Below the pieces are notes generated by a model that saw nothing but the letters and a program-made list of their open reading frames with translations, was not told the DNA's origin and did no database searches. Below, in pieces: positions 4,081 to 23,305 of a DNA stretch of 37,842 nt (the stretch's first letter is position 1; each line of letters opens with the position of its first letter). Source of the stretch: a virus; IMG/VR virus record IMGVR_UViG_3300027708_000165, positions 1 through 37,842 of that record; one strand, written 5' to 3'. A program made the translations under genes and the position numbers.

Positions 4081-5079
4081 ATGGCACATATGTTGGAAGA
4101 AGGACTAAATGGTGAGATATCGTTCGCGTCATTCCGTGAACCGGCATGGCATAATCTTGGGACGGTATTCACTGAGGAAGTAGGCACATCAGAAATGTTG
4201 CGGCTCGCACACTTGGATAAGTGGAATGTGCGTACCGAATCTATCTCAGAGAATGTGTTACGGCACAATTTTGTGAGCGATGCTTACATGGTGGTGCGAG
4301 ATAACCCGTTCAATCCTGAGCAGACTGATGTCCTGTCTGTAGTGGGCAAGCGATACAAGACAGTACAGAATGAAGACCTGTTCGCGTTTGGTGACAACAT
4401 CCTTGATGGTGGTGGACGTTGGGAAACAGCAGGGTCTATCAAGAATGGGAGGATGGTGTTTGGTTCGCTCGCGTTGGAGCGTGAGACAGTGCTTGACCCT
4501 CATGGTGTGGCAGATGTTGTGAAGTCTTATCTGTTGATTCACACATCGCATGATGGGAGTACGGCGGTACAGGCTAGTGTCACCCCTGTCAGGGTGGTGT
4601 GTCAAAACACTCTAAACCTTGCGTTGGGTAACGTGAAGCAGTCGTTCAAGATTAGGCACACTGCCACTGTGGACGGTAAGATCATGGCGGCACGCGAGGC
4701 TTTGGGTGTGGCTCACAAGTACATGGACGAGTTTGATGTGCTTGCTAAGGATATGATTCAGACCCAGATTAGTAAGGCTACGTTCGATAAGATCATCACT
4801 GCCGCTTACCCGAAGCCTCCTAAAGATGTGAAGGGTGCGGATGCTAAATGGAGTACAAAGATTGAAACTGTTCAATCTATTTATCAGTCTCCTACGACTA
4901 GCATGATCGCTGGTACTGCTTGGGGTGCGTACAATGCGCTCACTGAGAGGCTTGATTGGTATCGTAAGGGACGCGGAGACAATGCTGTGGAGAATGCTAT
5001 GGCTGCTGCGTCAGGGTTCGATCCTGTGACTAACGCTGAGAAGAATCGTCTGCTCAACGTGGTCATGGCGTTTGCGTAA
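4081..5079 (+). CDS. DUF932 phage/plasmid-like protein, 332 aa
   Basis: The largest early gene, with AAGGAAATGGAGA before ATG 4081. It opens MAHMLEEGLNGEISFASFRE, followed by PAWHNLG, the hallmark of the DUF932 (TIGR03299) family found on plasmids and phages. Further family segments are the VVGKRYKTVQNEDLFAF region near residue 85-105, VCQNTL near 175-180, and IRHT near 192. Length 332 is normal for the family. The biochemical role is not established; members occur in replication or host-takeover clusters. Preceded and followed by small early genes, it has no visible promoter of its own. Confidence 0.9.
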   Translation: MAHMLEEGLNGEISFASFREPAWHNLGTVFTEEVGTSEMLRLAHLDKWNVRTESISENVLRHNFVSDAYMVVRDNPFNPEQTDVLSVVGKRYKTVQNEDLFAFGDNILDGGGRWETAGSIKNGRMVFGSLALERETVLDPHGVADVVKSYLLIHTSHDGSTAVQASVTPVRVVCQNTLNLALGNVKQSFKIRHTATVDGKIMAAREALGVAHKYMDEFDVLAKDMIQTQISKATFDKIITAAYPKPPKDVKGADAKWSTKIETVQSIYQSPTTSMIAGTAWGAYNALTERLDWYRKGRGDNAVENAMAAASGFDPVTNAEKNRLLNVVMAFA

Positions 5080-5752: not shown

Positions 5753-5959
5753 ATGACTGACGACATGAAGAAAAACGGCGAGGCTATCGTTGCGCTCGCA
5801 CGTAAACTGTACCTGCATTACTGTGAAGAGAAGGCTTTCAACGCACGACAGTACCCTTGGTCGCCTTTGTGGGCCATGGAGTACGCGCAGATTGCCGTGA
5901 ACGCTTACGGGTTCGATGATGAAGGGTACGATGATCTCCTTAAGGAGATTGCCCCGTGA
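5753..5959 (+). CDS. Hypothetical early protein, 68 aa
   Basis: ATG 5753 follows AAAAGG by about eight bases. The product is helical with aromatic residues (KLYLHYCEEKAF, YPWSPLWAMEYAQIAVNAYGF) and a C-terminal acidic stretch. No motif is recognised. GTGA overlap links it to the WhiB gene; it may be co-translated with it. Function unknown. Confidence 0.65.
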   Translation: MTDDMKKNGEAIVALARKLYLHYCEEKAFNARQYPWSPLWAMEYAQIAVNAYGFDDEGYDDLLKEIAP

Positions 5960-6243
5960 AGTATCCTGAGTACACTGGCGATGAGGCATGTGCAGAGATT
6001 GGGGTGGAGTTCTTCTATCTTGATGAGCATTCTGGCACGCCAAGGAACATGCTAAAAATGTTTAAGGAAATGTGTATTCAATGCCCTATTTATGATGACT
6101 GTCTAGAGTGGGCTGTGCGTCACGAGAAGCATGGTCTGTGGGCAGGCACGACACCACGGACTAGAAGTAACATGCGCTATAATCGTGGTATCATAATCGA
6201 ATCCCCAGAGTACTGGGTGTTTCAAGATAGGAGTGCGTCGTGA
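5956..6243 (+). CDS. whiB: WhiB-family transcriptional regulator, 95 aa
   Basis: WhiB-like proteins are actinobacterial [4Fe-4S] regulators that bind the main sigma factor and redirect transcription. Here Cys12 (DEAC) is followed by Cys40-x2-Cys43-x5-Cys49 (CIQCPIYDDC), the four cluster ligands in family spacing. After these comes GLWAG at 60-64, the family G(V/I/L)WGG turn with Ala at the fourth position, then basic TPRTRSNMR for DNA contact. Length is normal. GTG start at 5956 overlaps the previous stop and the following gene overlaps its own stop. It points to an actinobacterial host and likely reprograms host or phage promoters, including the SigA-type promoters of this operon (inference). 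Confidence 0.93.
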   Translation: MKYPEYTGDEACAEIGVEFFYLDEHSGTPRNMLKMFKEMCIQCPIYDDCLEWAVRHEKHGLWAGTTPRTRSNMRYNRGIIIESPEYWVFQDRSAS

Positions 6244-20676: not shown

Positions 20677-21624
20677 CTAGGAGTTGTTGATCGAAGACGT
20701 AGACTCAAGACGGTACAGAGCCGCCTCACGGTAACGTGCCCAACCAAGAACGCCATACCAACCGATAGGACGGTGACGCATCAACTTGTCAACAATCGGA
20801 CCCACAACGGTGTGTGGCTCTTCCGCAACAGCCTCAGCAAGCGCCTGCTTACCGGCAAGGATCGTACGGTAAACGCGAGCAGACGAAAGACCGTCAGTCG
20901 TGTTGTACATACGCGGGGTCTCGACAAAATAAGCCCCTTCATAAGTCCCAATGAATCCCGGCCAAAAATTTTCTGACGCATCATACTTGTGCAGGTCTTG
21001 GAACCCACCCGAACCAGTCTCTGCACGAAGATCGTGCGAAACCTCAGGGTGAATGTAGCAAGCGTAAAGCGAGCCAAGACGGGGCACAGCAAGACCGGCA
21101 CGCAACTTCGCAACACCCTTACGGATATTAGACGTAGCAAGCGTCATAGAGTTAGAGACCGTTGCAGTGCTAGTTGCACTGCTTGCGTAAATAACGTTAG
21201 AGCCACCACGCAACGTAGTCATTGCGACAGCGTCAAGCGAATCTGCAAGGTTGTAGGCGATGATGTCGGCAGCAGCCGGATCAACGTCAGACAACGAGAA
21301 CAGACCCAACTTGCGGGTAAGCAGTGCAGCGTTGCCGTACTCAGCAAGCGTTACAGTTACCGTAGAAGTGTTGGAAAGCGCGACCGCATCAGGGTCAACG
21401 TTTTCTGTAAGGGTTGACGTAGCCTGTGCCAGATCGTTGTAAATCTGGAACACGACGGACGAACCCGGCATAGCCTGCTGCACAGGGCGCTTGTCTGCAA
21501 TATCACGGACGAGCGGCTGCGAACGCAGAGCCATTTCAACGTAACGATCATAAGCAGTCTGGACGACGTTAGTCATACCAGTCTGGTTAGAGATAGTCGC
21601 TGTACCTGTATAGGTATTAGCCAT
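20677..21624 (-). CDS. Major capsid protein, N4-gp56-like, 315 aa
   Basis: The coat protein. MANTYTGTATISNQTG is followed by YVEMALRSQPLVRDIADKR, the start of the N4-gp56 coat family; SVVFQIYNDL, the VTVTLAEYGNAALLTRKL segment near 90-107, VDPAAADIIAYNLADSLD, a helix-rich middle and YACYIHPEVSHDLRAE near 188-203 also match. PRMYNTTDG and GWYGVLGWARYREAALYRLE at the end fit the HK97-like fold of this family. Length 315 is normal. GAAGGTGA lies before ATG 21624. It follows the scaffold-like gene in the usual order. Confidence 0.9.
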   Translation of the reverse strand: MANTYTGTATISNQTGMTNVVQTAYDRYVEMALRSQPLVRDIADKRPVQQAMPGSSVVFQIYNDLAQATSTLTENVDPDAVALSNTSTVTVTLAEYGNAALLTRKLGLFSLSDVDPAAADIIAYNLADSLDAVAMTTLRGGSNVIYASSATSTATVSNSMTLATSNIRKGVAKLRAGLAVPRLGSLYACYIHPEVSHDLRAETGSGGFQDLHKYDASENFWPGFIGTYEGAYFVETPRMYNTTDGLSSARVYRTILAGKQALAEAVAEEPHTVVGPIVDKLMRHRPIGWYGVLGWARYREAALYRLESTSSINNS

Positions 21625-21671: not shown

Positions 21672-22151
21672 TTAATAGACTGACGGACCCGATTCGTTAC
21701 CGAAAATAAGCCGATTCAATTCGGCAGGAGTAGTTGCTGCACGAATCTGTGCCATAATCTGCTCCTCACCACCCGGAACATCCTCGCCCACTGACAGAAC
21801 GTCAGACATGCGAGAAGCGTTTGCTGGTGGAACAACCTTGTCAGGGTAATCGTTCTGCTGTTGCGACGGGGCACTTGTGACCCCAGCAAACACGTCAGCA
21901 CGTTCCTCAATCCAACGGTTAATATCATCAGCGTTACGCAAATCCGAAGGAATCAAATCTGCAATCTTAGGATTCATTCCACGAGCGTTCAGAACGTCCG
22001 TGACACTGCGAACACGTTCACCAGATCGGAAGTGATCAAGTTCCTGATCCTGCTCCTTCATCCGTTTCTGTGCGGCCTTCAAAGCAGAACGTAATTGCTT
22101 AATGCCATCAGAATCATTCATGTCCTGATCGTCATCTTCGTAGTAATCCAT
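21672..22151 (-). CDS. Scaffolding protein candidate, 159 aa
   Basis: Acidic, Gln/Asp/Glu-rich and mostly helical: MDYYEDDDQDMNDSDGIKQ, then LRSALKAAQKRMKEQDQELD and HFRSGERVRSV (a coiled coil of about 25 residues), a middle NARGMNPKIADLIPSDLRNA, and AQIRAATTPAELNRLIFG at the end. Length, acidity and location immediately before the coat gene match phage scaffolds, which template capsid assembly and then leave. Gene family not recognised by sequence alone. GAAAGGG lies before the ATG. The TLD-like RNA sits about 120 bases upstream. Confidence 0.72.
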   Translation of the reverse strand: MDYYEDDDQDMNDSDGIKQLRSALKAAQKRMKEQDQELDHFRSGERVRSVTDVLNARGMNPKIADLIPSDLRNADDINRWIEERADVFAGVTSAPSQQQNDYPDKVVPPANASRMSDVLSVGEDVPGGEEQIMAQIRAATTPAELNRLIFGNESGPSVY

Positions 22152-22275
22152 GATGTGTAATACACCCTTTCGCTCATCTTAGAGTTGCATAGCCCACATA
22201 ACTAGTCGGGGAACTAACTATGGCTGCTACTACCGGACTTATGGCGCACACAAGGGCCGGTCGATCTGTGTGGAG

Positions 22276-22354
22276 TGGAGCATCACGGAATCGAACCGTG
22301 GTCCTACTGACTACCCTCGTGGGGTCCTAACAGTAGTCGATACCTTCATGCCCC
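22276..22354 (-). ncRNA. tmRNA tRNA-like-domain-like RNA lacking the tag domain
   Basis: Read on the minus strand from 22354: GGGGCAT (22354-22348) pairs with ATGCTCC (22283-22277) as a 7-bp acceptor with one G-U pair at the third position, as in tmRNAs. Next come GA and A-GGTATCGAC, matching the tmRNA D-loop pattern GA..GGNNTCGAC, which lacks a normal D stem. CTACTG (22336-22331) pairs with CAGTAG (22309-22304), like helix P2, enclosing ACCC-CACGA-GGGT. The T arm is perfect: CACGG (22300-22296), TTCGATT, CCGTG (22288-22284). Discriminator A and CTCCA follow; CCA is not precisely encoded. No normal anticodon arm can be drawn and there is no room for a tag ORF. Co-transcribed with the late operon. 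Confidence 0.65.
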
Positions 22355-22372
22355 CGAAACCTACAGGTTTCG
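22355..22372 (-). promoter_or_regulatory. Hairpin abutting the tmRNA-like RNA 5' end
   Basis: CGAAACC (22372-22366 on the minus strand), loop TGTA and GGTTTCG (22361-22355) form a perfect 7-bp hairpin. Its last base touches the first base (22354) of the acceptor stem, and its loop holds the TAG stop of the upstream gene. It could mark the RNA-processing site or shield the mRNA end after cleavage. No T-run, so it is not a classical terminator. Confidence 0.5.
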
Positions 22373-23305
22373 ATTAACGCTTAACGAACCTTGCTGAATA
22401 CCTGACGTGCCACCAAAACGTGCTTTCTCACGCTCAGCACGTTTCTTAGAAAGAAGAGTTGCATCAGTATTGTTTGCAACATCAGCATTCAAAGCCTCAA
22501 ACGAATTGTATGCCGTGTTATCGAAACCTGAAAGGCGACTATCTTCCTTGGCCCTAGCCTCAGCAAGATGTGTACGGCGAGCAATTTCAGCATCAACCTG
22601 TGTAGCACTGTATCCAGTAAATTCGGAAGCAACCTGATCAGAAATTAATTTAGATTCAGCAGCATCAATGTTGATACCCTTTTGTGCAGCGCGAGTAGAA
22701 ATATCAATCTGTCGCAAGAAATCAGCAGAAGCCTGATCTGCAAGAAGTTTACCTTTTTCAGGATCAACAATGAAAGCAATCTGATAATCTGTAGTCACAC
22801 CAGCATCATTCAAAGCCTTCTTATAGGCATCAGGTGCAGCAGCATGAAGATTATAGGCAAGAGCCAGACGGTCACCAACTTCACTAACAGAAACATTGTT
22901 ATTGATAAGGTCAGCAATATTTGCGTTAGTTGAAAAAGTTGGTGCAGCGCCACCAAGATACTTTGACATCTTATCTTTATAGCCTTGCTCTAAAGCCTTA
23001 TACTCTCTAACATTACTTACAGCACCAGAAGAATATGCTGTATCAAAACCACCAAAACGTGTCTGAAAACTAGAAAAAGTTCTGATAAGATCAAACGCTT
23101 CAGTCAAACTAGAATCTGGAATACTGAGAAGATTTTTAATCTGAGTCTTCTCATTCTGTGTAAGAGGCACACCAGCCGCTATAAGATTATTCATCCACCT
23201 AGTTTCCGCAGCAGTAAACTCCGGGGCAGGTGTAATAGGTGCAGCAGTTGGTTTAGTGGTAGTAACAGGAACAGGAACAGTAGGCTTAACTGGGGTCTTT
23301 GCCAT
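22361..23305 (-). CDS. Internal virion protein candidate, 314 aa
   Basis: Begins MAKTPVKPTVPVPVTTTKPT, a Pro/Thr/Val-rich disordered start (~30 residues), then helical and Ala/Asn-rich, with LAEARAKEDSRLSGFDNTAY and KKRAEREKARFGGTSG near the end. No enzymatic motif. One of three Ala/Gln-rich proteins (with 23308 and 24276) that follow the giant gene; such sets in short-tailed phages are internal or ejected proteins. Its stop lies in the hairpin preceding the tmRNA-like RNA. Confidence 0.65.
   Translation of the reverse strand: MAKTPVKPTVPVPVTTTKPTAAPITPAPEFTAAETRWMNNLIAAGVPLTQNEKTQIKNLLSIPDSSLTEAFDLIRTFSSFQTRFGGFDTAYSSGAVSNVREYKALEQGYKDKMSKYLGGAAPTFSTNANIADLINNNVSVSEVGDRLALAYNLHAAAPDAYKKALNDAGVTTDYQIAFIVDPEKGKLLADQASADFLRQIDISTRAAQKGINIDAAESKLISDQVASEFTGYSATQVDAEIARRTHLAEARAKEDSRLSGFDNTAYNSFEALNADVANNTDATLLSKKRAEREKARFGGTSGIQQGSLSVNRNL

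Follow-up and report, generated by a model that had tools for sequence, protein, structure and literature searches.

At the level of sequence, the stretch from 22276 to 22354 on the minus strand of the window was confirmed as a stand-alone tRNA-like domain (TLD) of tmRNA, and such TLD-only RNAs are nearly restricted to phages. The window is the whole stretch of DNA that was analysed, 37,842 nucleotides in length, and corresponds to positions 1 to 37,842 of the IMG/VR record IMGVR_UViG_3300027708_000165.

Structure of the TLD-only RNA

The whole RNA of 79 nt (22276–22354, minus strand) was delimited with the covariance models R1 and R2, and starts 6 nt past the stop codon of the upstream gene. 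Read on the minus strand from 22354 to 22276, it is GGGGCAT GAAGGTATCGA CTACTG TTAGGA CCC CACGA GGG TAGT CAGTAG GAC CACGG TTCGATT CCGTG ATGCTCC A, and its parts follow one another in the order acceptor (7 bp, with G.U as the third pair), D-loop, P2, small hairpin, T arm, acceptor, and A. All parts lie on the minus strand. The 5′ strand of the acceptor stem, GGGGCAU (22348–22354), was assigned from the sequence, pair counts, and an acceptor-unbiased test, and has G3 of the G3.U70 pair at 22352. The 3′ strand, AUGCUCC, was assigned from the sequence and spans 22276–22283 together with the discriminator base, with U70 at 22279 and A73 at 22276. The letters directly after A73 are CUCCA, so no CCA is directly encoded there. 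The D-loop region GAAGGUAUCGA (22337–22347) was recognised from the sequence; the D-loop itself reads GGUAUCGAC and, in context after the acceptor, GAA-GGUAUCGA. Two features of tmRNA, the 7-bp acceptor with G3.U70 and A73 and the D-loop signature GGNNUCGA(C) without a D stem, are present in the window.

A third tmRNA feature, the P2 helix between the D-loop region and the T arm, is present as well and is backed by covariation; it is formed by the 5′ strand CUACUG (22331–22336) and the 3′ strand CAGUAG (22304–22309). The T arm CACGG-UUCGAUU-CCGUG (22284–22300) was assigned from the sequence and from pair counts in both alignments. In place of the tag ORF and the pseudoknots there are a purine-rich internal loop and a capping hairpin, CCC-CACGA-GGG (22310–22330). 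A tag reading frame with a resume codon is absent from the window's RNA, which has only 21 nt inside P2, and PK1–PK4 are also absent between the P2 strands, where only the 3-bp hairpin is found. ARAGORN found no tRNA with an anticodon arm (5 bp, 7-nt loop) and a D stem in the window, and the consensus structure contains neither. The first-pass annotation had described a 79-nt element with a tmRNA acceptor, D-loop signature, P2-like helix, and T arm and had read it as a tmRNA TLD without a tag ORF, and both the description and the reading held.

Covariation of the helices

In an alignment of 15 phage sequences, 99.4% of the cells at 21 pairs were paired, and 12 pairs had changed on both sides. 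The covariation score was 0.651, compared with a shuffle mean of 0.127, so that the compensatory changes that the first-pass annotation had proposed to look for in related phages were found, and RNAalifold recovered the same structure unaided. For 88 additional sequences, which were aligned by fitting them to the model, 98.1% of the cells were paired and the score was 0.689 versus 0.124 when shuffled. Compensatory changes occurred in all four helices. Five of the six P2 pairs covaried, and P2 was part of no search pattern. The capping hairpin was 100% paired in alignment A2, and its third pair covaried. A two-state switch between P2 and a GACTAC/GTAGTC pairing, which had been suggested earlier, was rejected: the alternative pairing is not conserved and stayed at the shuffle level (46.7% paired vs 47.2% in shuffles).

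Pieces of tmRNA or tRNA are frequent at attachment sites in phages, and the RNA could accordingly be a functionless, decaying remnant of a tmRNA or tRNA, for example from such a site. However, the compensatory changes in four helices, the conserved synteny, and the occurrence in many unrelated phages make this extremely unlikely, and the captured remnant offered as one option by the first-pass annotation was abandoned on the same grounds.

Detection by models and annotation tools

The TLD structure was absent from the single-sequence minimum-free-energy fold (z −0.44). Since this fold is uninformative, the case for the TLD rests on comparison. Model R2, a covariance model built from 12 phage sequences, all outside the window's group, matched exactly 22276–22354 with 79.2 bits (E 5.7e-16), whereas the controls gave no more than about 28 bits for ordinary tRNAs and 32.5 bits for a full tmRNA. 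Model R1 gave 85.7 bits on the window, which is one of its own training members. Phage tRNAs scored at most 29 bits versus 48–96 bits for typical members of the TLD family. ARAGORN called no gene at the element in the window, and cmscan with Rfam at its cut-offs made no call there; RF00023 reached 46.4 bits in a whole-record search, below its gathering cut-off of 47, a score passed by 40 of 55 records. The thresholds of ARAGORN and Rfam miss many such genes in the window and the other records that were checked, or the stretch is unannotated. Across the many unrelated phages that carry it, the RNA almost always lacks annotation.

An ordinary tRNA was ruled out by the lack of an ARAGORN call and by the R2 scores, which bears out the earlier remark that no normal anticodon arm can be drawn. 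A permuted (two-piece) tmRNA was ruled out in the window, as the 5′ half precedes the 3′ half and ARAGORN makes no call. In three relatives ARAGORN did call tmRNA* genes (L003 543–1278, L008 4257–4992, and L044 1781–2516), which fuse the TLD to a portion of the scaffold gene. These permuted-tmRNA calls were rejected as probably false; they place the tag in the scaffold-gene region, and no such call is made in the window or in other relatives.

The same locus in related phages

Related loci were collected with the major capsid protein gene (phrog_1357; 20677–21624, minus strand) as the probe, which gave 80 viral loci. The window's RNA lies between a gene of unknown function in an internal-protein-like position upstream (phrog_8424; 22361–23305, minus strand) and a scaffold-type gene downstream (phrog_7813; 21672–22151, minus strand), and the latter has a syntenic counterpart in Streptomyces phage Dennebes that carries the annotation "scaffolding protein". 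These neighbours agree with the late-operon position between internal-protein and scaffold genes that was read from the sequence alone. Of the 69 relatives with at least 800 nt upstream, R1 found a TLD ahead of the scaffold and capsid genes in 43, thus recovering the same spot in related phages as the first-pass annotation had advised, and in 43 of 51 when only the closest relatives (L001–L057) with at least 800 nt upstream were counted.

In most close relatives the T arm is about 650–720 nt before the capsid start, and the stems differ in sequence and stay complementary. The alignment of the relatives showed conservation of the whole TLD and of a stretch after it. In the window's group, which was picked by capsid synteny, the acceptors vary (the types include GGGGCAU/AUGCUCC, GGGGGUG/CACCUCC, GGGGCUG/CAGCUCC, and GGGUGUG/CACAUCC) and G3.U70 and A73 are kept. 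The GGNNUCGAC D-loop signature has been lost from several members of the group, and in some close relatives of the window the TLD is replaced or lost. A gene for a WhiB-like regulator is found elsewhere in the window (5956–6243, plus strand); together with the Streptomyces relatives, it hints at an actinobacterial host for this phage.

A separate leader module downstream of the RNA

The conserved stretch after the TLD contains an H-type pseudoknot (22232–22272, minus strand), with S1 CACACA/UGUGUG and S2 ACCGG/CCGGU, and a second hairpin, AUAGUUAGU/ACUAGUUAU with the loop UCCCCG, plus GUGGG (22193–22221, minus strand). Both covary, S2 being 97.5% paired with compensatory changes, and the module reaches the start of the scaffold gene. 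It also occurs 3′ of tRNA arrays in the Streptomyces phages Manuel, Abafar, and Dennebes, and these arrays of 14–22 tRNAs are exactly at the TLD position (L082 1473–3338, L083 2094–3339, and L084 1292–3339, respectively). In ct2KA10, the pseudoknot module is present with nothing tRNA-like before the pseudoknot. In L021, a short tRNA-Trp of 69 nt (4273–4341), whose D arm is seemingly reduced, lies between the TLD and the pseudoknot, and ARAGORN misnames the TLD of this locus as tRNA-Pro. In L027 (also L028, L029, and L054), L048, and L049, a small three-way junction occupies the TLD position before the pseudoknot; it consists of an acceptor-like stem, a 4-bp hairpin, and a T-arm-like hairpin with the loop UUCGUGR, and has no G3.U70. 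Because the pseudoknot occurs after tRNA arrays, alone in ct2KA10, and split from the TLD of L021 by the tRNA-Trp, the comparison identifies it as a leader element separate from the TLD. The region 22193–22272 (minus strand) has the appearance of a so far unreported 5′ UTR element before the scaffold gene, and the tRNA-like structure that precedes the pseudoknot possibly has a processing role at this locus.

Such a role could be carried further, to an RNA that punctuates the late mRNA. It would offer a site for RNase P (and the 3′ tRNA endonuclease) at which the upstream gene is split from the scaffold/capsid message, and the downstream pseudoknot would be left at the new 5′ end of that message. 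This is consistent with the tRNA array of the Streptomyces relatives that ends at the same pseudoknot, the replacement of the TLD in L027 and L048 by a three-way junction without G3.U70, the tRNA-Trp placed before the pseudoknot in L021, and the conservation of the pseudoknot module. However, punctuation alone would neither hold G3.U70 and A73 invariant nor account for the presence of the RNA within tRNA arrays and in several operons of other kinds among unrelated phages, and the pseudoknot of ct2KA10 lacks any tRNA-like structure before it. We consider punctuation unlikely as the explanation of the RNA; the late-mRNA processing put forward in the first-pass annotation is possible as a local side function.

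Distribution among phages and genomic contexts

Altogether, 180 distinct full-length members of the family were collected, and they fall into about 67 clusters; the counts are approximate, as a few low-scoring rows (35–45 bits) may be unusual tRNAs. The D-loop signature is present in 43 of the 67 clusters, which were partly chosen by this signature. A DNA pattern matched at least 120 viral contigs, and most of the matches were not tRNAs according to ARAGORN. This first pattern demanded G3.U70, and its G3.U70 counts were left out of the evidence. A stricter pattern matched 100 viral contigs versus 4 stretches in 84,980 prokaryote genomes. Two of these four stretches adjoin head or terminase genes of phages, and each of the four genomes has, in addition, a separate full-length tmRNA-like match. 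With stricter filters, R1 matched 1 of 296 actinobacterial genomes, which was the genome used as the centre/seed.

Some single records were seen alongside this survey. The Cellulomonas massiliensis chromosome (L210 779–858) carries a TLD close to genes for a tRNA-Arg and a helicase; the site may be a mobile island or a prophage remnant. A 340-kb phage contig (L119 and L356) seems to encode a full tmRNA (87.8 bits) as well as a TLD-like element at a different site. A weak match of 24 bits in Pseudomonas PA_L9 was left out of the counts.

The cultured carriers in which the RNA is unannotated include the Streptomyces phages LuckySocke, GiJojo, pSt2308, Alone3, BRock, and Shaeky and the Stenotrophomonas phage Jojan60; in GiJojo and Jojan60 the TLD match touches a predicted hypothetical protein. 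The TLD lies within the tRNA arrays of LuckySocke, Shaeky, and BRock. Other recurrent sites are the gap between the head maturation protease and capsid genes, the gap between the terminase and portal genes, and the position before a DnaB-type helicase gene, and in unrelated phages the TLD is found directly before capsid or portal genes. Several of the operons are late and highly expressed, from which many copies would be expected late in infection. An SmpB gene was detected in ten bacterial control genomes and in none of the 51 phage records searched, the majority of which carry a TLD, indicating that SmpB must come from the host.

Conservation of alanine identity

G3.U70 is the established main identity element for alanyl-tRNA synthetase (AlaRS). 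An acceptor-unbiased search, which avoids circularity, used only the letters of the D-loop and T arm and kept matches with at least 6 of 7 acceptor pairs. G3.U70 was present in 84 of the 86 distinct matches and A73 in all 86, and acceptor pairs 4, 5, and 6 used all four Watson–Crick combinations. The two exceptions to G3.U70 resemble an incorrectly placed T stem and an adjacent tRNA. CCA is encoded directly after A73 in 20 of the 86. Given that the invariant G3.U70 is the main AlaRS identity element, selection for alanine charging, or at least for recognition by AlaRS, is likely on these counts.

An RNA that targets AlaRS or EF-Tu, or that serves as an alanine carrier proof against anticodon nucleases, with no involvement of SmpB, would also be expected to have an invariant alanine identity and no anticodon, and some members of the window's group keep the alanine identity without the D-loop signature. 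But most clusters, which were partly selected by the signature, keep both the D-loop signature and P2, and AlaRS needs neither. We regard such a role as very unlikely.

Possible function in ribosome rescue

In view of its spread among many unrelated phages and its scarcity in bacterial chromosomes, the RNA probably disrupts or takes the place of ribosome rescue in the infected host. The best current reading is a decoy that titrates SmpB, and a published similar molecule fits it. Hudson, Lau and Williams (2014) list the tmRNA of mycobacteriophage DS6A as "TLD only" (PMC4131195), a precedent that contradicts the first-pass statement that no TLD-only tmRNA had been described. Citing Mao et al. 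2009, the same paper reports a similar molecule to be a strong inhibitor of tmRNA regardless of its ability to be charged, an effect that may come from titration of SmpB (PMC4131195). Inhibition of tmRNA by the phage TLD is inferred from this report by analogy.

The tag-less phage tmRNA keeps the parts read by alanyl-tRNA synthetase and, by analogy, those read by SmpB, EF-Tu, and RNase P, and lacks the template part of tmRNA. Most likely, tRNA-processing enzymes excise it from the late scaffold/capsid transcript, which is abundant; it would then receive a CCA end, be charged with alanine by the host, and be bound by host SmpB. In this state it would rival the host tmRNA for both SmpB and stalled ribosomes, so that proteins of the phage or the host caught on these ribosomes would not be marked for degradation late in infection. 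That the alanine-charged RNA takes host SmpB and stalled ribosomes and thereby blocks tagging is the most likely mechanism, at about even odds. The loss of the D-loop signature from several members of the window's group, the replacement or loss of the TLD in some close relatives, and the lack of an encoded CCA end in the window count against it.

The alanine identity is invariant although the reported inhibition does not require charging, which suggests more than titration, and for this reason there may be real room for an active, tag-free role in rescue. The alanine-charged TLD and host SmpB would take over the nascent chain and release it untagged, as a service to the phage. Members of the family sit among functional tRNAs in arrays, and mitochondrial tmRNAs without a tag frame persist together with SmpB (PMC11915505). 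However, normal release would need a stop codon or a template, neither of which the RNA provides, and the similar molecule reportedly inhibited tmRNA (PMC4131195); tag-free release is, in our view, rather unlikely as the main role. That many phages of different bacteria have independently kept a charged, tag-less tmRNA for tag-free rescue with host SmpB, as a common and overlooked class, is offered as a tentative proposal, well short of an even chance.

If the decoy or the rescue role is true, interference with trans-translation by a tiny RNA, or its takeover, is common among phages and has so far been missed. LuckySocke, Shaeky, and BRock, as cultured Streptomyces phages, make the question of whether phages disarm ribosome rescue directly testable, and the natural variants amount to a set of minimal TLDs on which the requirements of SmpB and AlaRS can be studied.

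Comparison with known systems

The window's RNA belongs to the known TLD-only kind. In the literature searched, no description of a broad TLD-only family was found; what appears new relative to that literature is how widely the family is spread, that its P2 is capped, that its alanine identity is invariant, and that its genomic contexts recur. The 2025 tmRNA database has only 9 "standard, no CDS" entries among 97,179 sequences (PMC11915505).

Standard tmRNA (ssrA, RF00023) shares with the phage RNA the acceptor with G3.U70 and A73, the stemless D-loop GGNNUCGAC, P2, and the T arm. Unlike standard tmRNA, the phage RNA has no tag frame and no PK1–PK4, is 79 nt rather than about 350 nt long, and usually does not encode CCA. 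Phage tRNA-Ala has the same alanine identity elements and a place in phage tRNA arrays, but the TLD-only RNA differs from it in having no anticodon arm and no D stem. The CDS-less organelle tmRNAs, which include permuted mitochondrial genes and two ~65-bp plastid genes of Mallomonadaceae, are likewise TLDs without a tag frame; they differ in being organellar, the mitochondrial genes are mostly permuted, and a capped P2 is not reported for them in the available part of PMC11915505. The TLD-only tmRNA of DS6A (PMC4131195) has been described as an isolated example, whereas the RNA described here occurs in ~67 clusters, with a capped P2 and recurrent genomic contexts.
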